Source: Gammaproteobacteria bacterium (GTDB lineage Bacteria; Pseudomonadota; Gammaproteobacteria; Steroidobacterales; GCA-2729495). Taken from it: a stretch of DNA of 58,677 nt. The stretch is from NCBI GenBank assembly GCA_029245525.1, contig JAQWPD010000041.1, positions 1-58,677 of the forward strand, in the 5' to 3' direction. The position numbers were made by a program, and so were the translations under genes. Below, one piece after another: positions 2,563-37,604 of this stretch. The notes under the pieces are model-generated. The model was not told where the DNA came from, did not search any database, and worked only from the letters and a program-made list of their open reading frames with translations. Numbering within the stretch: the first letter of the stretch is position 1; every line of letters begins with the position of its first letter.

Positions 2563-3333
2563 CTAAACCCGATAGACGTACTCTTTATCGTCATCGCGTT
2601 CAATATCCGGAGGATAACTGAGGCGCTTATCGGCATAATACTGAGCGATGTGATCGCCAGCAGATGCGGCATTGTAGGTGTAATACAAAACCCTGCGTGG
2701 ACTGGTGCTGCGATTGGGCTCTGAACGATGCGGTGCGTATGAATCAAAGAAGACGGCATCGCCCGGCTCGGCCTCTATTTTTTCATACTCCAACTCAGCA
2801 ATATTAGCGTCATCAAGCGGCGTCCATTCATCCCCCAACAAACCACGATTATGAAACCCCCCGGCCATTTCCAAGCAGCCATTTTCGATGGTGGTCTTGT
2901 CAATGGTGATCAATACGGTAATATGCAAATCAGCATACTTTGCCCAACCAGCCTGCACATCCTGGTGAGATTCAAACCCACCCCCACCTGGTTTTTTAAA
3001 ATTAATCTTATCTTTAAAAAGTGTCGCGGGCTCACCGAATAACTGCCCGCAAGTCCCCTGCATTTTTTCGCCCGCTGCCAACGCATTAAACTGCTCATGA
3101 TAAGGCAGCATATTCTCAATGCGATTTAACAGACGCTGCTTATCTTCAGTCTGCTCAAAGTACATCATCCACTTGCCGGCAGTTTCGGGCCAGGCTTCGA
3201 CTTCTTCGACCCACTGCGTAATAGGCTTTATTTCACTTTTACTGAACAAACCCGGCACGACCACATAGCCCTGCTCACGGAAAAATTTAATTTGTTCGTC
3301 GGTCAACGGACCGGAAACATATTCGTCACTCAT
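2563..3333 (-). CDS. PhyH-family Fe(II)/2-oxoglutarate dioxygenase
   Basis: Phytanoyl-CoA-dioxygenase-like hydroxylase of 256 residues. The iron facial triad is visible as H123-x-D125 in FESHQDVQAGW and H202 in SYAPHRSEPNRS, with a nearby Arg for 2-oxoglutarate. The HQDVQAGW context resembles the 2-aminoethylphosphonate hydroxylase group (PhnY type), which makes 1-hydroxy-2-aminoethylphosphonate. Here it lies immediately upstream of PEP mutase rather than beside a PhnZ oxygenase, so a tailoring role in phosphonate synthesis is more likely than catabolism (inference). A GGGGG Shine-Dalgarno sits 5 nt before the ATG. Gaps are 53 nt to the upstream lyase gene and 48 nt to the PEP mutase gene. 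The substrate could also be the carboxylic acid handled by the upstream genes. Confidence 0.85.
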   Translation of the reverse strand: MSDEYVSGPLTDEQIKFFREQGYVVVPGLFSKSEIKPITQWVEEVEAWPETAGKWMMYFEQTEDKQRLLNRIENMLPYHEQFNALAAGEKMQGTCGQLFGEPATLFKDKINFKKPGGGGFESHQDVQAGWAKYADLHITVLITIDKTTIENGCLEMAGGFHNRGLLGDEWTPLDDANIAELEYEKIEAEPGDAVFFDSYAPHRSEPNRSTSPRRVLYYTYNAASAGDHIAQYYADKRLSYPPDIERDDDKEYVYRV

Positions 3334-3386: not shown

Positions 3387-4301
3387 TCAACTCTGAGAAC
3401 GATCATCCGCGTGATCGGTAGCACTCTTTAAGGCGCCTGAGTAGGCTTGACCATCAGCCACCGTGCGACTTAAACCAACGAGCTCCATAACCTGACTAAA
3501 GTCGAGCATATCGTCGAGCATGTTCGCCGTAGTGCCATCCGTGTTAAGCACATTCAGATAATCCTGAGCAGCCTTGGTAATAACCCGAACCATCGCACCA
3601 GGGTAAATGACCAGACTAAAGCCCAGCTCACCCAGGCGACCAGCAGGCAGTAACGGAGTTCGACCACCCTCCACCATGTTCGCCAGCAACAGCACTTTGC
3701 CAGACAAACGTTCACTCACTTGGCGCAACTGAGCCTCATCACGCGGCGCCTCTACAAACAGCATGTCTGCTCCAGCTTGAGCATAGGCCTCGGCGCGATC
3801 CAGCGCAGCATCAAAACCCTCGACGGCGACTGCATCGGTGCGGGCAATAATCAAGGTATCGCTATCAAGCCTTGAATCAAGCGCGGCTTTCAGCTTGCCA
3901 GTCATCTCGTCAACGCTAACCAGACTTTTGCCAGCCAAATGCCCACAACGCTTCGGCAAGGTTTGATCTTCTAACTGAATCGCACTGGCCCCCATGCGCT
4001 CAAACAGCTTAACTGTGCGCTGCACATTCAGCGCGTTACCAAAACCGGTGTCAGCATCAACCACCAAAGGAATATCGACGCGCTCACGCATTCTGGCAAT
4101 GCTATCGCTCACTTCATTCATAGTGGTCAAACCAAGGTCAGGCCTTCCCAGCTTGGTAAAGGATACGCTGGCCCCACTCACATAGGCACAACGAAAACCT
4201 GCCTGCTCAACCATTAATGCAGTCAACGCATCGTAAACACCCGGCGCAATCAGCGGCGCTCCCTTCTTTAATTCTTGGCGTAGCTTGGCAGCGGGACTCA
4301 T
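3387..4301 (-). CDS. Isocitrate lyase/PEP mutase family C-C lyase (2,3-dimethylmalate lyase-like)
   Basis: TIM-barrel lyase of 304 residues in the same superfamily as PEP mutase but with lyase-type catalytic residues: the loop carries KRCGH (Cys119), as in isocitrate, 2-methylisocitrate and 2,3-dimethylmalate lyases, instead of the mutase EDK...NS arrangement. The Mg-binding segment is VDADTGFGN (residues 81-89), preceded by the usual SGASVS strand. Characterised relatives cleave a 2-hydroxy-dicarboxylate to pyruvate or glyoxylate plus a second acid, and some family members are oxaloacetate decarboxylases. Its ATG overlaps the stop of the LeuD-like gene (ATGA), so the two are translationally coupled. 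A hydratase making the hydroxy acid and this lyase cleaving it would mirror DmdAB plus dimethylmalate lyase of anaerobic nicotinate breakdown. The exact substrate is unknown. Confidence 0.85.
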   Translation of the reverse strand: MSPAAKLRQELKKGAPLIAPGVYDALTALMVEQAGFRCAYVSGASVSFTKLGRPDLGLTTMNEVSDSIARMRERVDIPLVVDADTGFGNALNVQRTVKLFERMGASAIQLEDQTLPKRCGHLAGKSLVSVDEMTGKLKAALDSRLDSDTLIIARTDAVAVEGFDAALDRAEAYAQAGADMLFVEAPRDEAQLRQVSERLSGKVLLLANMVEGGRTPLLPAGRLGELGFSLVIYPGAMVRVITKAAQDYLNVLNTDGTTANMLDDMLDFSQVMELVGLSRTVADGQAYSGALKSATDHADDRSQS

Positions 4302-4792
4302 ACGATTTCTCCTGCAGCTAAACGCTGCTTTAGCCAGGGCATTAAACCACCGGCATTAATCATATCCATCAAATAATCGGGAATTGGATCAACCGAATAA
4401 TGTTTATTCTGAGTATGGTTTATCACACTGCCTGAAATGGGGGCGACACTAAGCTCATCGCCCGCCTGCACCTCGGCATAGGCCGGGAACCGCAATACCG
4501 GCACGCCAAAATTGAGTGCGTTGCGGTAAAAAATACGCCCGAAAGAAGGTGCAAGAATCGCAGCAACCTGATGATGCTTAAATGCCAGGGCCGCCTGTTC
4601 ACGCGCCGAACCCACACCAAAACTCTCTCCTGCAACCACAACGTCTCCCGGCTGCACCCGTTTGGCAAACGCCGGGTCGAGTGCCTCCATGCAATGGGTG
4701 GCCATCTCTTCCATAGAACTTTTAAAATAAAGTCCGGGTGCCATTACGTCGGTATTTACCGCTTCACCAAAAACCCACGCTTTACCACTCAT
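4298..4792 (-). CDS. LeuD-like small subunit of an aconitase-family hydro-lyase
   Basis: Swivel-domain subunit of 164 residues of a two-subunit hydro-lyase. It shows the entry segment NTDVMAPG, the substrate loop SFGVGSAREQAA (the GS-x-RE signature of LeuD/aconitase domain 4), and SFGRIFYRNALNFGVPVL. With the LeuC-like partner just upstream it would form the active site that adds or removes water on a dicarboxylate. Its start overlaps the LeuC-like stop and its stop overlaps the lyase start, both as ATGA, giving three tightly coupled cistrons. Members of this subfamily include isopropylmalate isomerase, homoaconitase, citraconase and dimethylmaleate hydratase. No leuA or leuB is adjacent, so leucine biosynthesis is an unlikely role. 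Confidence 0.88.
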   Translation of the reverse strand: MSGKAWVFGEAVNTDVMAPGLYFKSSMEEMATHCMEALDPAFAKRVQPGDVVVAGESFGVGSAREQAALAFKHHQVAAILAPSFGRIFYRNALNFGVPVLRFPAYAEVQAGDELSVAPISGSVINHTQNKHYSVDPIPDYLMDMINAGGLMPWLKQRLAAGEIV

Positions 4793-6063
4793 GGCACAGC
4801 GCTCAGCATTTCACGAGGATCAACCAACTCACCGGCAACTGCCGCTGCGGCAACACTATAGGGTGACGCCAAATAGACACTGGCCGAATTGGCCCCCATA
4901 CGACCTTTAAAGTTTCGGTTGGTGGTAGACACACACACTTCATCTTCAGCAAGAATACCTGCGCCAAGAGCAGCACAAGCCCCGCAGCCGGTTGGCAGTA
5001 TAATAGCGCCAGCCTGAGTAATAGCAGCCAGTGTGCCATCGACTGCGGCGGCAGTCATCACCCGCGCTGAAGCTGGAGCCACCATTAACCGCGTGCCCGG
5101 CTTCACCTTGCGGCCACGCAATACCTCCGCCACCATATGCAGATCGCTGAGCTTGGCACCCACGCAGGAACCAACATAAGCCTGATTGATTTTGGTGCCG
5201 CGATAATCGCCAACAGGACCAGAGTTAGATGGTGAATGCGGAGCCGCTATTTGCGGCTCAAGCTCGGCCGAGGAGAAATCCAACCGGTTCTTGTAAACTG
5301 CATCAGCATCACTGCACCATTCACGCACATTGGCAGCGGGCTGCTGGCCGGCGTCACGCAATGCCTGCAAAGTGACGTCATCGGGCTCAACAATACCGGT
5401 TTCGGCACCAAGTTCGGCCGCCATATTGCACAGCACGGCTCGCTCCTGCATGCCCATGGCGCGAACTGTGCTGCCACCATACTCCATAACCACGCCACCA
5501 TTGTTCATGCCAAGCTCACGACATAGCTTCAGCATTATGTCCTTTGCTACAACGCCATGTTGAAACTCACCTTCCCAATTAATTCGCACAGTCTCAGGCA
5601 CCGGAATCCAGATTTCACCAGTAACGGTAACGCCGGTCATCTCAATAGCGCCAAAGCCCGATATGTAGCAACCAAATGCACCGCCATGCGTCGAATGCGA
5701 ATCGCCGCCACAGACGAACATCCCCGGATGCAAAAAACCTTGCTCGGCAAGCATCAGGTGACCGATGCCCTGCATATCAAAGAATTTATTAATCCCAAAC
5801 TCGGTGGCAAAATCCCGGGTCAACTTTAGAATTGCCGCAGATGCAGTATCGACTGCAGGGACAAAGTGATCGGTACACAGAACAATCCGATCAGGGTCCC
5901 AGACACCCACGTCCAGTTCTTTTAACCGCGGCCAGATACGTCGCGGACCACCAGAATCAAGCAGCAAGGCAAGATCAACTCGGCAGGTTACAATTTCACC
6001 ATGGCGAGGGTCGGAGCGACCCGATGCGTTGCGCACAATTTTCTCTGTAATGGTGAGGCCCAT
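4789..6063 (-). CDS. LeuC-like [4Fe-4S] large subunit of an aconitase-family hydro-lyase
   Basis: Iron-sulfur subunit of 424 residues, the short form typical of archaeal/bacterial homoaconitase-type LeuC proteins. Cluster ligands are visible as VGSCVGAKLSDL followed by PTGCGACAALG (one plus two Cys). The segment GGDSHSTHGGAFG is the usual active-site strand, and FDMQGIGHLM stands where this family carries its conserved His-containing loop. It is encoded 71 nt after the PanE-like reductase gene and overlaps the LeuD-like gene by 4 nt. Candidate reactions are hydration of a methyl-substituted maleate or citraconate-type acid, or isomerisation of a 2-hydroxy acid, with the product handed to the C-C lyase. 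Aconitase homologues also act in some phosphonate pathways (for example FrbA with phosphonomethylmalate), but the required synthase partner is not seen. Confidence 0.88.
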   Translation of the reverse strand: MGLTITEKIVRNASGRSDPRHGEIVTCRVDLALLLDSGGPRRIWPRLKELDVGVWDPDRIVLCTDHFVPAVDTASAAILKLTRDFATEFGINKFFDMQGIGHLMLAEQGFLHPGMFVCGGDSHSTHGGAFGCYISGFGAIEMTGVTVTGEIWIPVPETVRINWEGEFQHGVVAKDIMLKLCRELGMNNGGVVMEYGGSTVRAMGMQERAVLCNMAAELGAETGIVEPDDVTLQALRDAGQQPAANVREWCSDADAVYKNRLDFSSAELEPQIAAPHSPSNSGPVGDYRGTKINQAYVGSCVGAKLSDLHMVAEVLRGRKVKPGTRLMVAPASARVMTAAAVDGTLAAITQAGAIILPTGCGACAALGAGILAEDEVCVSTTNRNFKGRMGANSASVYLASPYSVAAAAVAGELVDPREMLSAVP

Positions 6064-6134
6064 GAAAGTCCGGATAAATAATATGCAGTTGCGGGCGCTG
6101 GCCTTGGCCTAACGATTTGGCTCTAGATTCTTGC

Positions 6135-7124
6135 TCATTTTTTAGGGTAACAACCAGCGCTGCGACCAATCTCAGCAGCTAGCTCCGCAACAGTATCAAG
6201 TTTATCGGTAGCAGCACCAGTATTCCTGCCCAGTTCCTGTACCGCGGTTACCAGCGCACCGATCTCAAGCTGCCGCCCCCCTTCAAGGTCCTGCAACATT
6301 AGCGTCTTGTGCTCGCCCAGCAATACCGAGACATCCAGCAGCTCCTTCGGTGTCATAGACGGCGTTATGCCAAGCGATTTAGCCACCGCGACAATATCAT
6401 TCATAATCTCAACAACCTCCCTGCGTAACCGATAATTAATGAACATGTCACCAGGTTTTTTACTGGTTAGCACGCTGACTAAACTGAAAGCCGCACTCGC
6501 CATTATTCGCAGCCAAAGACTGCTGCGAATGTCACTGACTACATCCGACCGTAAACCTGCATCCAAAAATGCCTGCTGAACTTGCTCTGAGCGTTTCGAT
6601 TTCGACCCGTCCGGCTCACCCAGCAAAAACCGGGAGCCAAACTGGTGTTGAATAATGCCGGGACCCGTGCTGTTTATCGATGGATACGCGATACAACCAA
6701 GCGCGCGCTCAGGGCCGATGGCTGCCCAGATTGCACCGAGGGGATCGACAGCATCAAGCCAGTGATCCTCTGGGTTGTACTTGTGCTTGTGCTTATAGAA
6801 GTACCACCAGGGGATGCCCTCACAGAGCGTAACGACTGCCGTATCTTTACCCAGTAGTGGCTGCAATGAGTCAGTAATGCCAGCCAACTCCATTGAACGA
6901 ACAGCAATAATAACCAGATCCTGCTCGCCTAAATCAGCAGGACAATCTGTAATCGGCAGGCTTACCTCAAGCGGGCTGTCGTCGCTCGTCAGCTTCATGC
7001 CATCCCGCCTGAGCACGGCACAAATATCGCTGCGATCAACGCAGCTGAGCTCATGATCGGTCGCCTTAAACCGAAGGGCTATCCAACCACCTATGGCCCC
7101 TAAACCATAGACACAGATTTTCAT
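6135..7124 (-). CDS. Ketopantoate reductase-like (PanE/ApbA) dehydrogenase
   Basis: NADP-dependent 2-oxo-acid reductase family member of 329 residues. It starts with the Rossmann motif CVYGLGAIGGWIA, has an all-helical C-terminal domain with the family's Lys/Asn-rich helix (SSLWLRIMASAAFS), and ends with EIGALVTAVQELG, close to the PanE segment that contacts substrate. Authentic PanE reduces 2-dehydropantoate. The context here, between a UbiD decarboxylase (121 nt upstream) and a LeuCD/lyase set, suggests reduction of a different branched oxo-acid or semialdehyde. The N-terminal part of the nucleotide loop is typical but a long insertion (about residues 110-140, Trp/Tyr/His rich) departs from standard PanE. 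No strong Shine-Dalgarno is present before the ATG. Confidence 0.8.
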   Translation of the reverse strand: MKICVYGLGAIGGWIALRFKATDHELSCVDRSDICAVLRRDGMKLTSDDSPLEVSLPITDCPADLGEQDLVIIAVRSMELAGITDSLQPLLGKDTAVVTLCEGIPWWYFYKHKHKYNPEDHWLDAVDPLGAIWAAIGPERALGCIAYPSINSTGPGIIQHQFGSRFLLGEPDGSKSKRSEQVQQAFLDAGLRSDVVSDIRSSLWLRIMASAAFSLVSVLTSKKPGDMFINYRLRREVVEIMNDIVAVAKSLGITPSMTPKELLDVSVLLGEHKTLMLQDLEGGRQLEIGALVTAVQELGRNTGAATDKLDTVAELAAEIGRSAGCYPKK

Positions 7125-7245: not shown

Positions 7246-8742
7246 TTAAAGGATACCTTTCAACTTTTCAGCAACCTGAGCCACTTTCTCACGCGGAGGA
7301 AAACTTACTTCCTGATATTCATCAAAACGCTCGGGCACTTTAATGGTTGCATCAATGCCCATCTGCGAACCTGTAACAGGGAACCCATGATGACCTTTCG
7401 GCGCCGACGGATCCAACACGAATGCCTGTCCTGACTCATTCACAATCATGTCACTTGCAGGCATGACACGGGTTGCGATTGCCCACTCAATTGAATCCAT
7501 ATCGTAAGGGTCAACATCAGGCCCGACAACAATCACGATCTTTGCTGTACGCCCCCAACGACCTGCCGAACCCCATACCGCATGCAGAATATATTTACCG
7601 AACTCAGCATGTGGCTTACGCGCACCATCAACACTTAGCTGGACGATGTAGGTCATATTAGGAGTCACCACAACATCCTGCACCTCGGGCGCTTTGCGCT
7701 GTAAGTCGCTTAACACTTCGCCTTCAACTGGAACAAGTGCAATGTAATTGTGATCAAACGGCGGCACCATTTCCATGGTTGCATACCACTGAGCATTCTT
7801 ACGGTGCGTAATGTGTTTTACGTCAACCATCGGAAACACCTGAATAGCATCGTAGTAACCAACTGGGTTTGAATGACGACCAATAGTCTGCTCGGCATCG
7901 GGGTGGAACACGCCTTCAATAACAAACTCGGCACCAGCTGGCACTTCCAGGTCAACGGTATCGCACTTCACCAACTCGATAGGTTCGCCTTTTAAACCGC
8001 CCGCAAAGTTGTATTCATCGGCACCAAATGGCACACCGGTTGCGGCCGCCATATGCACAACAGGATCAACCTGACAGGCAATCGCAATTTCAAGCGGTTT
8101 ACCCATTGCTTTGGCTTTTGCCAGATGCAAACCAATATGGCTCATTGGCGGGTTCCAAAAACAGAAAACCGATAACATTTTCTTCTGCTCTTCTTCAGAG
8201 TAGGAACCACCGGTAGGATGCTCGGCACCAGAGAACTGAGTCAAACGATACCAGCCCACATTGCGCTCGCCCGTTTCCGGATCTTTCGTCACCACAACAC
8301 CGCCGGTCACATAGGACGCCTGCTCTTTACCAAACCAGACCAAAGGCAGCTGCTTCGATAAATCGATCTCTGCCTCTTTAATAACAACCTCTTTACACGG
8401 TGCGTCAGCAGCATCAATAATCTTCGGCTCATGCCACTTGGAATTATCGCCCAAAATACCGGCATGCTTGATTTTGCATTCCAGCGGATCGGCAGTATCA
8501 ATGGTCATCGCGGTTCGCTCGCGGGTACCGAAAACATTGAACATCACAGGATGCTGCGGCGTGTTGTAGCCCTTCAGGTTATTCAGCATTAACGCCGGGC
8601 CGTCCTGCTCACAGACCAAGCGCATCAGCGCCTGCATCTCATTTTCTTCACCAATTTCACAATTGAGCTCAACATCAACCTGCTTCAACTGATCCTGACT
8701 GTCCAAATGTGCCAGAAACTCACGCATATCCTTAAAAGGCAT
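7246..8742 (-). CDS. UbiD-family decarboxylase with altered catalytic glutamates
   Basis: UbiD/Fdc-type protein of 498 residues that would use prenylated FMN to decarboxylate (or carboxylate) an unsaturated or aromatic acid. I chose the ATG at 8740-8742 (MPFKDMREFL) because a GGAG Shine-Dalgarno precedes it; an in-frame codon 60 nt upstream only adds a poor extension. The flavin-side Arg is present in RNVGWYRLTQF (Arg166) and the metal-ligand Glu in ADEYNFAGG (Glu243). The usual EGPFGE-x-x-GY block, which supplies both catalytic Glu residues, reads IGRHSNPVGY (287-296), so both Glu positions are Ile and Asn. This suggests either a divergent subgroup with different proton chemistry or a non-decarboxylating homologue. 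ubiX lies 2 kb away. Confidence 0.88.
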   Translation of the reverse strand: MPFKDMREFLAHLDSQDQLKQVDVELNCEIGEENEMQALMRLVCEQDGPALMLNNLKGYNTPQHPVMFNVFGTRERTAMTIDTADPLECKIKHAGILGDNSKWHEPKIIDAADAPCKEVVIKEAEIDLSKQLPLVWFGKEQASYVTGGVVVTKDPETGERNVGWYRLTQFSGAEHPTGGSYSEEEQKKMLSVFCFWNPPMSHIGLHLAKAKAMGKPLEIAIACQVDPVVHMAAATGVPFGADEYNFAGGLKGEPIELVKCDTVDLEVPAGAEFVIEGVFHPDAEQTIGRHSNPVGYYDAIQVFPMVDVKHITHRKNAQWYATMEMVPPFDHNYIALVPVEGEVLSDLQRKAPEVQDVVVTPNMTYIVQLSVDGARKPHAEFGKYILHAVWGSAGRWGRTAKIVIVVGPDVDPYDMDSIEWAIATRVMPASDMIVNESGQAFVLDPSAPKGHHGFPVTGSQMGIDATIKVPERFDEYQEVSFPPREKVAQVAEKLKGIL

Positions 8743-9054
8743 GTTTTTCACTCCGAAAATGCTTGTTATTAAGCGCAGCTTGCACGCAATGCCGGTCACC
8801 ATATCAAAAAACCGGCATCGACCCTATGGTTTCAAAGGTCTTGAGCACGATGGTGTCCATTACATTTGATAGATAGCCAGCGGGTTAGACGCTTATGCCG
8901 ATCCAGGAAATAACCAAGAACACACTATTTCTCTCAAAAAACTAAGGCATAAACAGCAGAAAACCGCTAAAGTGCGCCACCTAAATGACGCCAAAAGGCG
9001 TCTAAGCATAATCAATCAGCAGATTTCAGATACACCATATTTAAGGAAGGACAC
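8743..9054. promoter_or_regulatory. Divergent control region between ubiD-like and SDR genes
   Basis: This 312-bp stretch separates the minus-strand ubiD series from the plus-strand SDR gene and must hold promoters for both. I see two dyads. ATGCCGGT at 8789-8796 is repeated in inverted form, ACCGGCAT, at 8811-8818, with arms centred 22 bp apart, about two helical turns, on the ubiD side. GACGCC/GGCGTC (8987-8992 and 8997-9002, AAAA loop) lies about 50 bp before the SDR start. No convincing -10/-35 pair could be assigned. No regulator gene is encoded nearby, so the factor binding here would act in trans. Confidence 0.45.
8789..8818. promoter_or_regulatory. Perfect 8-bp spaced dyad, candidate operator
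   Basis: ATGCCGGT and ACCGGCAT are exact reverse complements separated by 14 bases, 47 nt upstream of the ubiD-like start codon. The spacing suits a dimeric repressor on one DNA face; as RNA it would form a stem with a U-rich loop in the ubiD leader. Which of the two it is cannot be decided from sequence. Confidence 0.4.
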
Positions 9055-9971: not shown

Positions 9972-10448
9972 CTATAGCCCGAACTCTTCGCGGTGGCCAA
10001 AGCCTTTTGCATTATCAATAAACCGAATCCAATCGGGTTTGATGCAATAGAAATTCGCTGCTTTTAGACGTTTAGCAATGGTCTCTTCATGCTCACCGGA
10101 CGGCTTTGCATAGAGTTGATCAATCTGGGGAAACTTCTTCAAGTAAAGCATCAACGCTTTCGCACGTTGCAGACCATCAACAACTCTAGCAGTGCCGCTT
10201 ACCTGGACGCCATGCACATCGTGCCAATTGTCGCAGTCAGGATTAATGGTCGCGGCTACCCGGCTATTCTGCGCCATGTCTCCCCCATGATGGGTGCGGT
10301 AATCGGAGACAAAATACAGATTCAGGTCCGAGTCACTGACAAAAAAGACTGTCGCGGCCCAAGGCTTATCGTCCTGACTCGTCGCTAGTGTGAGCGTACT
10401 GTATTGCTGCAGGTACTTCTGCACCCTGGCTTTATCGTCTTTATTCAC
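9972..10448 (-). CDS. PPOX-type flavin-binding protein
   Basis: Split-barrel protein of 158 residues of the pyridoxamine-5'-phosphate oxidase-like group (YhbP-like). Visible features are the early strand STLTLATSQDDKPWAATVFF, typical of the FMN-binding face, the HHGGDMAQNSRVAATIN turn and the VQVSGTARVV strand. Characterised relatives bind FMN, F420 or heme and often act as reductases or binding proteins. It is encoded 20 nt after ubiX, almost certainly in one transcript. The pairing with prenyl-FMN synthase suggests flavin handling or reduction in the same system (inference). No specific substrate can be given. Confidence 0.8.
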   Translation of the reverse strand: MNKDDKARVQKYLQQYSTLTLATSQDDKPWAATVFFVSDSDLNLYFVSDYRTHHGGDMAQNSRVAATINPDCDNWHDVHGVQVSGTARVVDGLQRAKALMLYLKKFPQIDQLYAKPSGEHEETIAKRLKAANFYCIKPDWIRFIDNAKGFGHREEFGL

Positions 10449-10468: not shown

Positions 10469-11041
10469 TTAAGACTTAGGACGACCACCAGACCATCGCT
10501 TGACAAACTCGTTGTCGATATCGAAAAGATCAAGCACACGACCAACTGAATGATTAATCTGATCATCGATCGTTTTTGGCAGATTATAAAAGGCAGGCAT
10601 GGGCGGAGAAATAATTGCACCCATCAATGCAGCCTCATGCATCAGTTTAGTATGACCAACGTGCAGCGGTGTTTCACGAGGCATGATCACTAACTTACGA
10701 CGCTCTTTCAACACAACATCAGCTGCACGCACCAGCAGAGTATCCGCGTAAGAATTTACGATACCGGACAGCGTTTTCATCGTAGCCGGAGCGACCACCA
10801 TCCCCGCGGTTTTAAATGAGCCACTCGAAATAGTTGCTGCGAGATTCTGATCGCTGTGCACCTCATCAGCCAAGGCCTCAACATCCTCTAACTTCCAGTC
10901 TGTTTCGAGCTTAATATTGAGCTTGCCGCCATTACTGACAACCAGATGAGTCTCCACATCCGGTATTTCTCGCAGCATCTCCAGCATACGAATCCCATAG
11001 ATGACACCACTGGCACCAGAAATACCCACAATCAAACGCAT
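10469..11041 (-). CDS. ubiX: Flavin prenyltransferase UbiX
   Basis: Makes prenylated FMN from reduced FMN and dimethylallyl monophosphate, the cofactor of UbiD decarboxylases. The 190-residue protein starts with the FMN-binding GISGASGVIYGIRMLEMLRE, has a Ser-rich segment (TISSGSFKTAGMVVAPATMKTLSGI), and a C-terminal MPRETPLHVGHTKLMHEAALMGA that holds the prenyl-phosphate-binding Arg/His residues. Two UbiD proteins, at 7.2 and 13.8 kb, are the natural clients. It leads the PPOX gene. The organism may have another ubiX for ubiquinone, and the present copy may be dedicated to this cluster. No clear regulatory site was found upstream. Confidence 0.93.
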   Translation of the reverse strand: MRLIVGISGASGVIYGIRMLEMLREIPDVETHLVVSNGGKLNIKLETDWKLEDVEALADEVHSDQNLAATISSGSFKTAGMVVAPATMKTLSGIVNSYADTLLVRAADVVLKERRKLVIMPRETPLHVGHTKLMHEAALMGAIISPPMPAFYNLPKTIDDQINHSVGRVLDLFDIDNEFVKRWSGGRPKS

Positions 11042-13594: not shown

Positions 13595-13807
13595 AGCATC
13601 AATCATTGGGCAGCCCAGCTGTCCTCGGGAGAAAGGGCCCATGCCAAAGGCTATGAAAGCAGTCGTTTTCAGCACTATTGTCTGCATTAACAACCCGGCA
13701 TACAGCCAATGGCACACAGTGAACAGACAGTCGATTGTGTTAGCCAAGCAAAACCCCAGTGGATATGCTCAAACACATTAAAAAAACAGCAATATGGAGC
13801 GCATGAA

Positions 13808-15517
13808 GTGACTAATAAGAATTTAACTCAGACACCGTCAGCGATCACCGAACCGGTCGATACCAATATTATCAACCCCGGACGTCGCAATTTTCTGACA
13901 GCCGGTGCAGTAGGTATTGCAGCTGCTTCTGCACTCCCCTCGTTAGGCTTTAGTGCTGAAGAAGATTCTCAAGCTGCCACAATCGATGGCGTGAAAATGG
14001 ACCCTGCCATTGGCGCTCCATTTAACTCTCTGCGCGACTACATGAAGGCTATTAAAGATCAAGGTCTGGTATTTCATGTAAAACGTCTTGATCAGGATAA
14101 CTATGAGATGACCGCGCTAATGTACAAACTGATCGATGAGTACGGTTGGTACGATGCTCCTGCCATTATGGCTGATGAAGTTAAGATCAACGGTGAGTGG
14201 GTGAAAGGGCCGGTTATTTCTAACCAACAAGGGCCTTGGGAAACAGAAGCTATTGTGTTCGGCGTTGCCAATACTCCCGGCGAGCCAGAAGTCACCTATC
14301 GACGAGCCATCAAGTACCTTGAGGGCAAGATTGAAAATGGCAACTACCCCACTATTGCCCCCGTTACTGTCAGCGCGAAAGACTCTCCATGCAAAGAGAT
14401 TGTGCTCACCGGAGATGAATGCGACCTCACTAAGTATGCTTTCATTCAGAGCAATCCTGCCGATTCGCGTCGCTATGTAAATACAGGTTCCATTTACACC
14501 ACCGACCCTGAAATGGGAATGAATTTTGGCACTTACCGCTGTGAATTGCGTGGACCTCGGTTATTGGGTGTTAACCCCGAACCCAATCAAACCGGCTGGA
14601 AAATGCTGATGGCGGCGAAAGAACGTGGTGAGAAAACCGCCAAAATATCCATCGCTCTTGGCCAGGATCCTATCACCTGGATCGTCAGTAGCTCGCGCGT
14701 TGTCAATCGCATTACCAATCGCGGACCTATTGATGAGCACGCAACTGTTGGCGGCCTGCGCGGTAAGGCCCTTGAATTGGTTAAGTCGGAAACCAACGAC
14801 ATCATGGTGCCCGCAAACAGCGAAATGATTATTGAAGGTGAAGTGTCGCTTACCGAAACTCTTCCCGAAGGCCCATTCGGTGAAATGTATGGCTACCTGG
14901 GTCTGAAGAAAAGCGAAAACTTCTTTATGACCGTTACCGCCATTACCCATCGAAAAAATCCATGGATTATCAACCAATTTACCGGGGCCACCCGAGGCTA
15001 CTGCACCGGCCCCACTGCAGCACTTTACAACACCACTCTGAAAGGTTTAATCCCGGGACTCGTTGAGCTGCATTCTCCCATTGAATCAACCGGGCTCACC
15101 TTTGTAAGAATTAAAAAGACAAAGCCCGGTGAAGGTAAGAAGGCGGGTGAACGGCTGGCAAAACTTATTCCAATTTTCAAAGTGGTGGTGGTCGTTGATG
15201 AAGATGTTGACGTAATGAACACTGGTGAAGTAGGTCTTGCTATTGGCTCACGCCTGCAAGCCGAAACCGCTGTCAGTATCTTCACCGGTCGCGGTATGCC
15301 ACTCGACCCGAGCTCGATCGAACGGGGCAAGTCAGGCAAGCTTGTTATCGATGCCACGCGCCAGTGGCCTGAAGAAGGTGGCCCGGACTCTTACCCCAGC
15401 ATGAATCGCACACTGCTCGAAGAACAAGCCCCGCAATCGTTTGAACTGGTGAGCGAGCAATACAACAAGTACATTAAGCCAGGTCGAAAATGGAAAGGCC
15501 CGAAACGGCGTGTTTAA
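13808..15517 (+). CDS. UbiD-family decarboxylase with a twin-arginine leader
   Basis: UbiD-type protein of 569 residues. The catalytic set is intact: Arg244 (FGTYRCEL), metal-ligand Glu310 (DEHATVGGLRG) and Glu354/Glu359 in EGPFGEMYGY. The N-terminus carries a Tat-type signal: GRRNFLTAG with Arg26-Arg27, then a hydrophobic stretch to about residue 48 and EED. I place the start at GTG 13808, with GGAG 8 nt before it; an in-frame ATG at 13709 would add 33 residues without a convincing ribosome site and put the RR pair deeper. Tat export carries folded, cofactor-loaded proteins, so prenyl-FMN could be inserted in the cytoplasm first. A terminator follows directly. The substrate is unknown. Confidence 0.88.
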   Translation: MTNKNLTQTPSAITEPVDTNIINPGRRNFLTAGAVGIAAASALPSLGFSAEEDSQAATIDGVKMDPAIGAPFNSLRDYMKAIKDQGLVFHVKRLDQDNYEMTALMYKLIDEYGWYDAPAIMADEVKINGEWVKGPVISNQQGPWETEAIVFGVANTPGEPEVTYRRAIKYLEGKIENGNYPTIAPVTVSAKDSPCKEIVLTGDECDLTKYAFIQSNPADSRRYVNTGSIYTTDPEMGMNFGTYRCELRGPRLLGVNPEPNQTGWKMLMAAKERGEKTAKISIALGQDPITWIVSSSRVVNRITNRGPIDEHATVGGLRGKALELVKSETNDIMVPANSEMIIEGEVSLTETLPEGPFGEMYGYLGLKKSENFFMTVTAITHRKNPWIINQFTGATRGYCTGPTAALYNTTLKGLIPGLVELHSPIESTGLTFVRIKKTKPGEGKKAGERLAKLIPIFKVVVVVDEDVDVMNTGEVGLAIGSRLQAETAVSIFTGRGMPLDPSSIERGKSGKLVIDATRQWPEEGGPDSYPSMNRTLLEEQAPQSFELVSEQYNKYIKPGRKWKGPKRRV

Positions 15518-15530
15518 TGCAAAACCTTAA

Positions 15531-15560
15531 AAGCCCGGTTTAATAAAACCGGGCTTTTTA
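15531..15560 (+). terminator. Intrinsic terminator after Tat-UbiD gene
   Basis: AAGCCCGGTTT (15531-15541) pairs with AAACCGGGCTT (15546-15556) around an AATA loop and is followed by T residues. It lies only 20 nt before the nitrilase-fold start codon, so the next gene depends on readthrough or a promoter inside this gap. Confidence 0.88.
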
Positions 15561-15579: not shown

Positions 15580-16644
15580 ATGACCACTCAAACTCCCACA
15601 ATGGTTCGCGAAGACGGCACTTATCCCGTCAAAGAATTACGCCGCCCATTTACTATGGTAAGCGCGGTGCAAACCCGGGTGCAGGGTGTAGATGGGGCAA
15701 ACCCTGGCCCTGGCATACGCAAAAATCTGGACTACATGCTCGAATGCATAGACATTGCACAAAGCAATGGTCCGCCGAGTGATCTACTAGTCTTTCACGA
15801 GTTCCCGATCACCGGCTTCGGCACTCAATGGACCAAAGAGCAACACTACAATTTGGCGCTGGAAGTACCGGGCCCCGAAGTTATGGAAGTGGCGGCCAAA
15901 GCAAAACAATATGGCTGCTATATCGTGTTCGGGACCTATGCAAAAGACCCCGCCGATTGGCCAGGACATATTTTGCATCTAATGGTGATGGTTGGCCCCG
16001 AAGGCACCGTCGTTGCGAAGCACTGGAAACAACGCAACGTGCGTGGCATGTTCCCTGGCAGTGAGCAATACACCTCGGCCATATATGATGTCTACGATCG
16101 GTTTGTCGAGATGTATGGCATTGATGCGGTGGTTCCGGTGGTGGAAACCGATATAGGTAATATCGCAATGTCAGCTGTACAGTTTGAACCGGAACTGTTT
16201 CGTTGCTTTGCACTGAAAGGCGCAGAAATTATTTGTCGCGTGGCTACCGGCGGCTTTGAGTACGAGGATATGCGTCTCACCTCATACCACAACAGCCTGT
16301 ACACAATTATTGTGAATAACTCTGTCACAACTGGTGAGCGCAACCCAGGTTTCTTCGATGAGGAAGCCTACGGCGGCTCAGGACGCTCTGCTATCTTTGG
16401 CCCACGCGGGGTTGAAATTGCTACTGCCGGACCTTTTGAGTGCAAACAGTTCACAGTTATCCCAACTGCTCAGTTCAGAGCCAAACATCGCACGCCGGAT
16501 GTGCACATGACATTGTACGAACCAGTATTCAGCCAGTATCGCGAGCGCTATGATCACAGCCAATATCTTGATTATCAGCCTACAGACAAACGTGATGCTT
16601 TCAGGTTCTTTAAAGAGAACTCGCGCTGGACGCATAACTGGTAG
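15580..16644 (+). CDS. Nitrilase-fold protein, aliphatic-amidase-like, catalytic Cys replaced by Ser
   Basis: Carbon-nitrogen hydrolase superfamily protein of 354 residues. The Glu of the catalytic triad appears in VFHEFPITGFG and the Lys in VAKHWKQRNV. The nucleophile region, by comparison with AmiE (Cys-Asp-Asp ... Pro-Glu-Ile-Trp-Arg), reads SAVQFEPELFRCFALKGAE; Ser198 (TCA at 16171-16173) stands at the Cys position. The surrounding KGAEIICR segment confirms the alignment to aliphatic amidases/formamidases. Loss of the thiol normally abolishes amidase activity, so this may be a binding protein, a Ser-dependent hydrolase or an inactive paralogue. An AAAGGA ribosome site precedes the ATG, and a terminator closes the gene. 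It lies directly downstream of the Tat-UbiD gene. Confidence 0.87.
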   Translation: MTTQTPTMVREDGTYPVKELRRPFTMVSAVQTRVQGVDGANPGPGIRKNLDYMLECIDIAQSNGPPSDLLVFHEFPITGFGTQWTKEQHYNLALEVPGPEVMEVAAKAKQYGCYIVFGTYAKDPADWPGHILHLMVMVGPEGTVVAKHWKQRNVRGMFPGSEQYTSAIYDVYDRFVEMYGIDAVVPVVETDIGNIAMSAVQFEPELFRCFALKGAEIICRVATGGFEYEDMRLTSYHNSLYTIIVNNSVTTGERNPGFFDEEAYGGSGRSAIFGPRGVEIATAGPFECKQFTVIPTAQFRAKHRTPDVHMTLYEPVFSQYRERYDHSQYLDYQPTDKRDAFRFFKENSRWTHNW

Positions 16645-36827: not shown

Positions 36828-37604
36828 GTGAGTAATGCTATTAATCTGCAAGAGCCCTCGCAAATTCTCAACGCGCAAGTCAAGCTGCGGGGCAGCTCGG
36901 ATGGGTCTGCAGTTATGTGGTTTATGCGCGGCACGCAGTATGGTGTAATCGATCTCGAACCCACTCCGTTTTACAACCTGTGTAACGGCAGCTTCCAGCG
37001 AATTACACAGATGGACGAAGACCTTTTCCAGATAAAAATGCTTGAATTATCGTTCTTTACCGACCTGAATACCGGAGAACCGCTGCGGCAGTTTACCAAC
37101 CCGTATAATGGAAAACTGTGTGACATGCCGAATGAGGTATTTGGTCCGAACACTGTCAGCATTAATCTTGATGGCATGCAGCCACCAGAGCACTTTCCTT
37201 TTGGCACGCTAACCTTTGACGGCGGTCTTGGTCCCGCTCACACTATCGGCGATGACCTTTGGGTTCGCGAAGAGACAAAAGTGCGAATGCGCTCAGCGAA
37301 CCCTGCCTTCGGCAACTATTTCTACAACGAAATCGTCAACTACCGCGGTAGCTTTAATGAAGTCAATGACCCCGAGGTAAAAAATGCTGCAGCAACCATC
37401 GACTATCACACGACAAGCAACTTCCGTCCGTGGATGCAGATGGCCGAACTGCAAGGCAACCTTGAGTCACAGGCAACAGGCAAAAAAATAGCCAGCGTGG
37501 AAGAGTTTCCAGCCGACTATCTGTCAAAAGCAAAAAAACTATTTCCTGAATTTATCGCAGACCCAATTGCTGTTCTCGATAGTCCACCAAAGTTTCCATC
37601 GTAA
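36828..37604 (+). CDS. DUF1838-family protein
   Basis: 258-residue protein resembling the DUF1838 family by its overall plan and motifs such as LNAQVKLRGSSDG, FMRGTQYGVI, PFYNLCNGS and TLTFDGGLGP. The usual Tat/Sec leader of many members is absent, so the protein would be cytoplasmic. The start is GTG 36828, 5 nt after the ispB stop, so it is likely translated from the ispB mRNA. Molecular function is not established for the family; I make no guess. A 203-bp untranslated stretch without a clear terminator follows. Confidence 0.72.
   Translation: MSNAINLQEPSQILNAQVKLRGSSDGSAVMWFMRGTQYGVIDLEPTPFYNLCNGSFQRITQMDEDLFQIKMLELSFFTDLNTGEPLRQFTNPYNGKLCDMPNEVFGPNTVSINLDGMQPPEHFPFGTLTFDGGLGPAHTIGDDLWVREETKVRMRSANPAFGNYFYNEIVNYRGSFNEVNDPEVKNAAATIDYHTTSNFRPWMQMAELQGNLESQATGKKIASVEEFPADYLSKAKKLFPEFIADPIAVLDSPPKFPS

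Follow-up and report, generated by a model that had tools for sequence, protein, structure and literature searches.

The window, that is, the whole 58,677-nucleotide stretch of DNA that was analyzed, lies on contig C61 of assembly G000 (2.28 Mb, 98% complete). On its forward strand, positions 13808 to 15517 encode a 569-residue protein of the UbiD decarboxylase family with a Tat leader, designated P0001; the open reading frame and its coordinates are as described in the original prediction. The gene has a GTG start codon, and a GGAG ribosome-binding site (13796–13799, +) is situated 8 bases 5' of the GTG at 13808. A terminator-like hairpin plus T run, recognized by eye (15529–15559, +), separates the UbiD gene from the gene that follows. 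That next gene was identified by profile match as a CN_hydrolase (nitrilase/amidase superfamily; 15580–16644, +), which also adjoins the UbiD gene of the sister genome; given the intervening hairpin, an operon with the nitrilase gene is not supported. On the reverse strand, profile searches located a ubiX flavin prenyltransferase gene (10469–11041, −), with no second copy found in the genome, and its partner, a PNPOx/YhbP-like gene (9972–10448, −).

The anticipated leader, GRRNFLTAG followed by a hydrophobic stretch, is present in P0001: the sequence and the leader scan place a twin-arginine motif, GRRNFLT, at residues 25–31 (13880–13900, +) and an uncharged hydrophobic region at residues 32–48 (13901–13951, +), and the AlphaFold pLDDT is below 50 over residues 1–61. 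The twin-arginine leader, GRRNFLTAGAVGIAAASALPSLGF, precedes a complete UbiD fold, and the N-terminus, VTNKNLTQTPSAITEPVDTNIINPGRRNFLTAGAVGIAAASALPSLGFSAEEDSQ, has the form of a Tat-type leader whose n-region is rather long, including the RRx-hydrophobic-hydrophobic motif and uncharged h-region by which Tat substrates are recognized in sequence. By eye the c-region is weak (GFSA-EED, in which −3 is Phe and not one of the small residues), which makes cleavage of the leader in P0001 uncertain, and the NCBIfam model TAT_signal_seq (TIGR01409, 29 positions) scored the protein at 12.5 bits, below the cut-off of 16.7; this model matched weakly overall, reaching just 18 of the 62 members of alignment A4 at E ≤ 1. 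The weak c-region and the low score for the curated Tat model would both suit a leader that acts as an N-terminal membrane anchor, with no export and with the enzyme held on the inner face of the inner membrane. An in-frame ATG (13709), 33 codons 5' of the GTG, would suit a different reading, in which the N-terminus is mis-called, RR is there by chance, and the UbiD is an ordinary cytoplasmic one. At the sister genome locus (L038, 97% identical), a stop codon occurs seven codons 5' of the same GTG with no start codon between them, and ATG 13709 is therefore not a conserved start. Values of dN and dS were 0.0099 and 0.234 for the mature part and 0.083 and 0.478 for residues 1–60, indicating that the gene is under purifying selection.

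A survey of UbiD proteins for Tat leaders, as proposed in the original prediction, was carried out on 80 stretches taken from more than 150 listed matches, with identical 190-residue cores merged; 197 loci yielded 124 subfamily open reading frames, of which 121 were complete at the N-terminus (the three cut there were left out). A strict Tat-leader scan was positive for 94 of the 121 homologues, and all 94 belong to one clade of 99. Three further leaders in the clade were identified by eye, including that of L195, SRREFLATGLAAVSAESILAGTASA, which the strict scan had missed, giving a leader in 97 of 99 members and in none of the 22 leaderless relatives, every one of which falls outside the clade. 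Two clade members, L094 and L153, show no leader, which may reflect either a true loss or an assembly fault. Among the 94 stacked leaders, the residue before RR, a position outside the scan rule, was S in 60, D in 20, and T in 9; position +3 was L in 41 and F in 40 and position +4 was L in 67, although the stack was chosen by RR and the scan rule at +3/+4, so those letters are partly so by construction. The absence of Tat leaders that had been expected of ordinary UbiDs was confirmed in controls drawn from the same class but other families (0 of 28, from 29 loci, one of which gave no open reading frame), which are mostly canonical ubiquinone-type UbiDs and represent only some of the UbiD types. 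Nor was a leader seen in 12 UbiD pieces that were partial or more distantly related, several of them cut at the N-terminus. A somewhat looser scan was positive for 55 of 1341 neighboring non-UbiD predicted genes, some of them true Tat proteins.

A quick tree of the mature part only (LG+G4, SH-aLRT) gave the 99-member clade a support of 100 among the 121 homologues. Two of the by-eye leaders had been labeled beforehand and L195 only afterwards, so the tree carried 96 of 99 labels; with this labeling the leader changed state 4 times, against a mean of 26.2 for shuffled labels. Such change counts alone cannot separate gain from loss of the leader. With four ordinary UbiDs as outgroup the leaderless rows were basal to the clade, and because these relatives branch below it, a single gain before the radiation of the clade is the simplest history. 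On the basis of the start shared with the sister genome, a leader carried by 97 of the 99 clade members, and its absence from all 28 controls, a mis-called start with a chance RR is ruled out for practical purposes, and we regard the ordinary cytoplasmic reading as extremely improbable. The membrane-anchor reading is also unlikely, if less drastically so: no leader without RR was seen among the 99 clade members, where an inner-face anchor would not need RR, and a lipobox-like motif, equally needless for such an anchor, follows the Tat motif in 33 of the 94 strict-scan positives. The conservation of the leader across the clade makes export much likelier than it would be from one sequence, and we judge an exported location of P0001 to be very likely on these sequence comparisons.

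The catalytic part of P0001 spans residues 70–556 (14015–15475, +) according to Pfam, the AlphaFold model, and the structure search. Both Pfam domains of the family exceeded their cut-offs (PF01977, 163.2 bits against a gathering score of 23.3; PF20696, UbiD_C, 75.7 against 24.2), no match to the UbiD_N model was obtained in the Pfam scan, and P0001 scored under the cut-offs of NCBIfam TIGR00148 (207.8 against 244.85) and, by far, NF041204 for VdcC (181.1 against 650). The AlphaFold2 model, built from a 62-row alignment, had a pLDDT of 87.4 and a pTM of 0.83. Its top structure match was chain A of 7ae4, the vanillate and hydroxyarylic acid decarboxylase ShVdcC (Z 42.0, 459 residues aligned, 3.5 Å, 27% identity), which was also the best sequence match and shares the UbiD fold and the Arg-Glu-Glu site; HmfF (Z 41.6) and Escherichia coli UbiD (Z 41.0) came next, and UbiD-family entries made up 49 of the 50 structure matches listed. 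The match to VdcC starts at residue 69, past the leader, and the structural alignments to solved relatives extend over residues 69–557. VdcC works with a small subunit, VdcD, according to the accessible text of PMC8379154.

The UbiD motif R-Xn-E-X4-(E/D) corresponds to the ionic network Arg173-Glu277-Glu282 of Fdc1, as given in the accessible part of PMC5818171. In P0001 this motif is matched as R-Xn-E-X4-E by Arg244, Glu354, and Glu359, which align with the R/E/E residues of both VdcC and HmfF, so the complete Arg-Glu-Glu site foreseen for the protein is intact. Arg244 lies with Asn239 in the sequence NFGTYR (14522–14539, +), and both are invariant across the 99 clade members and the 22 leaderless relatives, as is Glu310 (14735–14737, +), taken as a metal ligand. 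Within EGPFGE (14867–14884, +), Glu359 is likewise retained by all 99 clade members and Glu354 by 93, the remaining six (L172, L174, L176, L182, L187, and L193, leader-bearing UbiDs of one subclade) having Asn at this equivalent of Glu277. A dead enzyme is ruled out by the retained Arg and both Glu residues together with the low dN/dS. We conclude that the domains, predicted fold, and motif firmly identify P0001 as a UbiD family member, one that differs from the family (PF01977/PF20696; TIGR00148) in its export leader, the sub-threshold TIGR00148 score, the missing UbiD_N match, and the absence of a metal-position His.

This last difference concerns Thr262 (14591–14593, +), at the position that we take to be that of Fdc1 His191, which binds Mn at the prFMN phosphate as one of three metal ligands, Asn, His, and Glu; Asn239 and Glu310 are taken to correspond to Fdc1 Asn168 and Glu233. 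A residue number for the metal His was not found in the texts searched. Two of the three ligand positions are thus kept in P0001, and the third is Thr262. The residue at 262 was T in 69 clade members, S in 8, G in 8, R in 6, Q in 3, A in 3, V in 1, and M in 1 (n = 99), with no His, whereas the leaderless relatives had His in 18 and Asp in 4 (n = 22; Fisher p 6e-18 for His, ignoring relatedness). Because the nearest leaderless sisters include those with Asp, the change at the metal site may predate the gain of the leader. When a leaderless relative was aligned, its 262-equivalent His fell on the His of VdcC, HmfF, and PhdA, so VdcC retains the residue; the direct alignment of P0001 with VdcC placed Gln261, not Thr262, opposite that His, and the exact partner of the metal His is accordingly uncertain by one residue. 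A His one residue earlier, at 261 in place of Gln, is present in 5 of the 99 clade members. UbiDs carry Mn and Na or K at the prFMN phosphate in the accessible text of two reports (PMC8988006, PMC7976604).

The absence of a metal-position His throughout the sampled clade is a new observation from the alignments, and it complicates the claim of a prFMN cofactor. It could mean that P0001 is an exported protein with a UbiD fold but no prFMN decarboxylase, using another flavin or none in a different periplasmic role, and the Asn in place of Glu277 in the six members of one subclade would agree with such a role. We give this reading a low probability, although a higher one than the membrane anchor: the equivalents of Asn168, Glu233, Arg173, and Glu282 are all invariant in the clade, the gene is under purifying selection, ubiX is kept in most genomes with the subfamily (see below), and the five members with His one residue earlier suggest that a ligand may come from nearby. 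A prFMN-dependent decarboxylation outside the cytoplasm is probable.

TatC, a component of the Tat translocase, was detected in the genome at 226.2 bits (vs 25.1). The suggestion that the nearby ubiX could load the enzyme holds in part: the gene is present in the window and is the sole one found, but it lies on the opposite strand in a separate transcription unit, so an operon with ubiX is not supported and nearness counts for little. Its being the sole ubiX found in the genome is stronger evidence than its proximity. The PNPOx/YhbP-like gene was adjacent to ubiX at 29 of 29 uncut loci (30 examined, one cut) and is a possible prFMN maturation or handling protein; as a small gene product of a flavin-binding type encoded beside ubiX, it may be comparable to the prFMN maturation proteins PhdC and LpdD. 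Above-cut-off ubiX genes occurred in 31 of 40 genomes of the family, comprising 31 of 37 with the subfamily (G035 counted among them) and none of three without it (G003, G011, and G028; Fisher p 0.0085), a correlation that rests on three subfamily-free genomes, two of which, G003 and G011, belong to one genus. For five of the six subfamily genomes lacking ubiX, completeness was at most 88%. A canonical-type UbiD (≥250 bits) was found in only one of the 40 genomes, G011, where the absence of ubiX may for that reason be an assembly gap; by the same count, ubiX seems to be retained mostly for other UbiD-like enzymes. Leaderless UbiDs also need ubiX. Since UbiX has no leader, the enzyme, if it uses prFMN, would have to be loaded before its export. 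Tat transports folded proteins, as stated in the accessible text of PMC3712460.

Five UbiDs are encoded in the genome, three with Tat leaders (the target, L002, and L003) and two without. L002 (SRRTVLG...LAGC) and L003 (SRRTMLG...ANAC), both 45–49% identical to the target, have lipobox-like sequences after the Tat motif. A leaderless paralogue in the window (7246–8802, −) has IGRHSN in place of EGPFGE, so that both catalytic Glu residues are apparently gone while Arg is retained; beside it (3387–7124, −) are genes resembling methylisocitrate lyase, the large and a putative small subunit of aconitase/isopropylmalate isomerase, and ketopantoate reductase.

UbiDs (PF01977) were found in 38 of 40 family genomes, with a maximum of 13 in one genome, and 48 of 60 relatives matched at 1e-20, a figure that includes distant ordinary UbiDs. 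The leader-bearing class is large, which rules out an oddity unique to this genome. Wide spread was not seen either: at E ≤ 1e-100 the class sample gave matches in 2 of 369 genomes (our own and another member of its family) and the phylum sample in 1 of 398 (our own), the class and phylum samples being empty outside the family in a first pass that scored at most the 3 best candidates per genome, so copies could be missed. The order sample gave matches in 57 of 296 genomes. Two N-termini from the order outside the family, G049 (= L095) and G038 (= L115), were leaderless, and most other such genomes align just from profile position ~40 onward; leaders may exist in G1001 and G992, because the alignment starts at profile position 1 in the former and at 10 in a piece of the latter. 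Among the genomes sampled, close matches by sequence are confined to one family and its order. The best 80 of 188 relatives in a contig scan were all MAGs, the closest being 'Chromatiales bacterium SI072_bin130' and the other records mostly labeled Gammaproteobacteria or groups within, a few otherwise. There were no matches to viral contigs; 389 plasmid records matched, all below 60% identity, and the one N-terminus examined (Rhizobium jaguaris, L290) had no leader.

A conserved neighborhood common to the homologues was not found among 121 loci, where recurrent clusters are a minority: Rieske proteins at 16 loci, SDR at 16, one MFS cluster at 11, and DUF1838 at 8, as raw counts for phylogenetically non-independent loci. 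Near other paralogues there are Rieske oxygenases (of VanA_C type in the two scanned), luciferase-like monooxygenases, SnoaL-like proteins, and SDR proteins, and some have DUF1838, SDR, and aldo/keto reductase proteins with Tat leaders of their own nearby. A homologue of the CN_hydrolase near the leaderless UbiD L091 also carries a Tat leader. In L061 and L167, DUF1838-cluster genes with Tat leaders immediately follow the Tat-leader UbiD gene, and in L147 such a cluster gene comes two genes after the UbiD gene (Pfam was run on L061 only); in the accessible part of the literature searched, DUF1838 appears in an antibiotic gene cluster context. Such neighbors occur in only a minority of loci, where they hint at organic acids of an aromatic or recalcitrant kind. 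Several further genes were noted along the way. The window encodes a DUF1838 protein without a leader (36828–37604, +) and a PEP mutase-nucleotidyltransferase fusion (895–2514, −) beside a PhyH-type dioxygenase (2563–3333), two genes that may belong to phosphonate metabolism. A short-chain dehydrogenase whose Tat leader is accompanied by a lipobox-like motif, SRRRFIAGGGAVVAASSLSGC (L036:3607–4659, +), lies ~3.7 kb from the own-genome paralogue L002 on the same contig.

Taken as a whole, the explanation we favor, and consider reasonably probable, is that P0001 is a Tat-exported, UbiX-dependent decarboxylase that is loaded in the cytoplasm and acts on an unsaturated or aromatic acid from outside the cell. 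UbiX would make prFMNH2 in the cytoplasm, where apo-UbiD would fold and be loaded, perhaps with help from the PNPOx-like protein paired with UbiX, and Tat would then carry the folded holoenzyme across the inner membrane. In the periplasm it would decarboxylate an alpha,beta-unsaturated or aromatic acid arriving through the outer membrane; the product, carrying less charge, could afterwards pass the inner membrane. Paralogues with a lipobox-like stretch, two of them in this genome, would be membrane-anchored lipoproteins. The exported enzyme might instead run as a carboxylase or detoxifier rather than as a first uptake step, since UbiD chemistry is reversible and catabolic neighbors (Rieske/VanA-like oxygenases and transporters) accompany a minority of loci; we hold this to be about as unlikely as the membrane anchor, as an energy supply for carboxylation is not evident in the periplasm and many paralogues per genome better suit the catabolism of diverse substrates.

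The UbiD family is thought to act inside the cell. Its prFMN cofactor depends on UbiX and has to be matured by proper oxidation, and the activity of some UbiD enzymes is lost on exposure to oxygen. Oxygen inactivates VdcCD, the nearest solved relative, at its cofactor (accessible text of PMC8379154), and for that reason oxygen would be a problem for a decarboxylase in the periplasm. The proposed working, with cytoplasmic folding and cofactor loading followed by export on an RR leader, resembles that of Tat-exported cofactor enzymes such as the periplasmic nitrate reductase NapA, as outlined in the accessible accounts of these systems, although NapA is unrelated in family and cofactor. No exported UbiD was found in the literature searched, judged by titles and the starts of abstracts among the matches listed and with subscription papers mostly outside the search, and UbiD paralogue expansion in MAGs was likewise not found in the literature searched.

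Judged by the homologues compared here, the apparently exported UbiD clade is a real and unusual feature. A broader proposal, which we advance tentatively and think doubtful, is that one lineage moved prFMN chemistry outside once, rebuilt the metal site at about that time (with loss of His), and multiplied paralogous soluble and lipoprotein decarboxylases, which, together with Tat-exported DUF1838, SDR, and aldo/keto reductase proteins, may constitute a system outside the cytoplasm for dissolved organic matter that is aromatic or carboxyl-rich. The 97 leader-bearing sequences offer a test set for extracytoplasmic decarboxylation and may also serve biocatalysis with feedstocks that are unable to get into cells. 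If the favored explanation is true, a whole clade of exported UbiDs would represent a new compartment for the prFMN cofactor and would raise the questions of how holo-UbiD is proofread before Tat transport and kept active outside, and some aquatic bacteria would decarboxylate acids ahead of their uptake.
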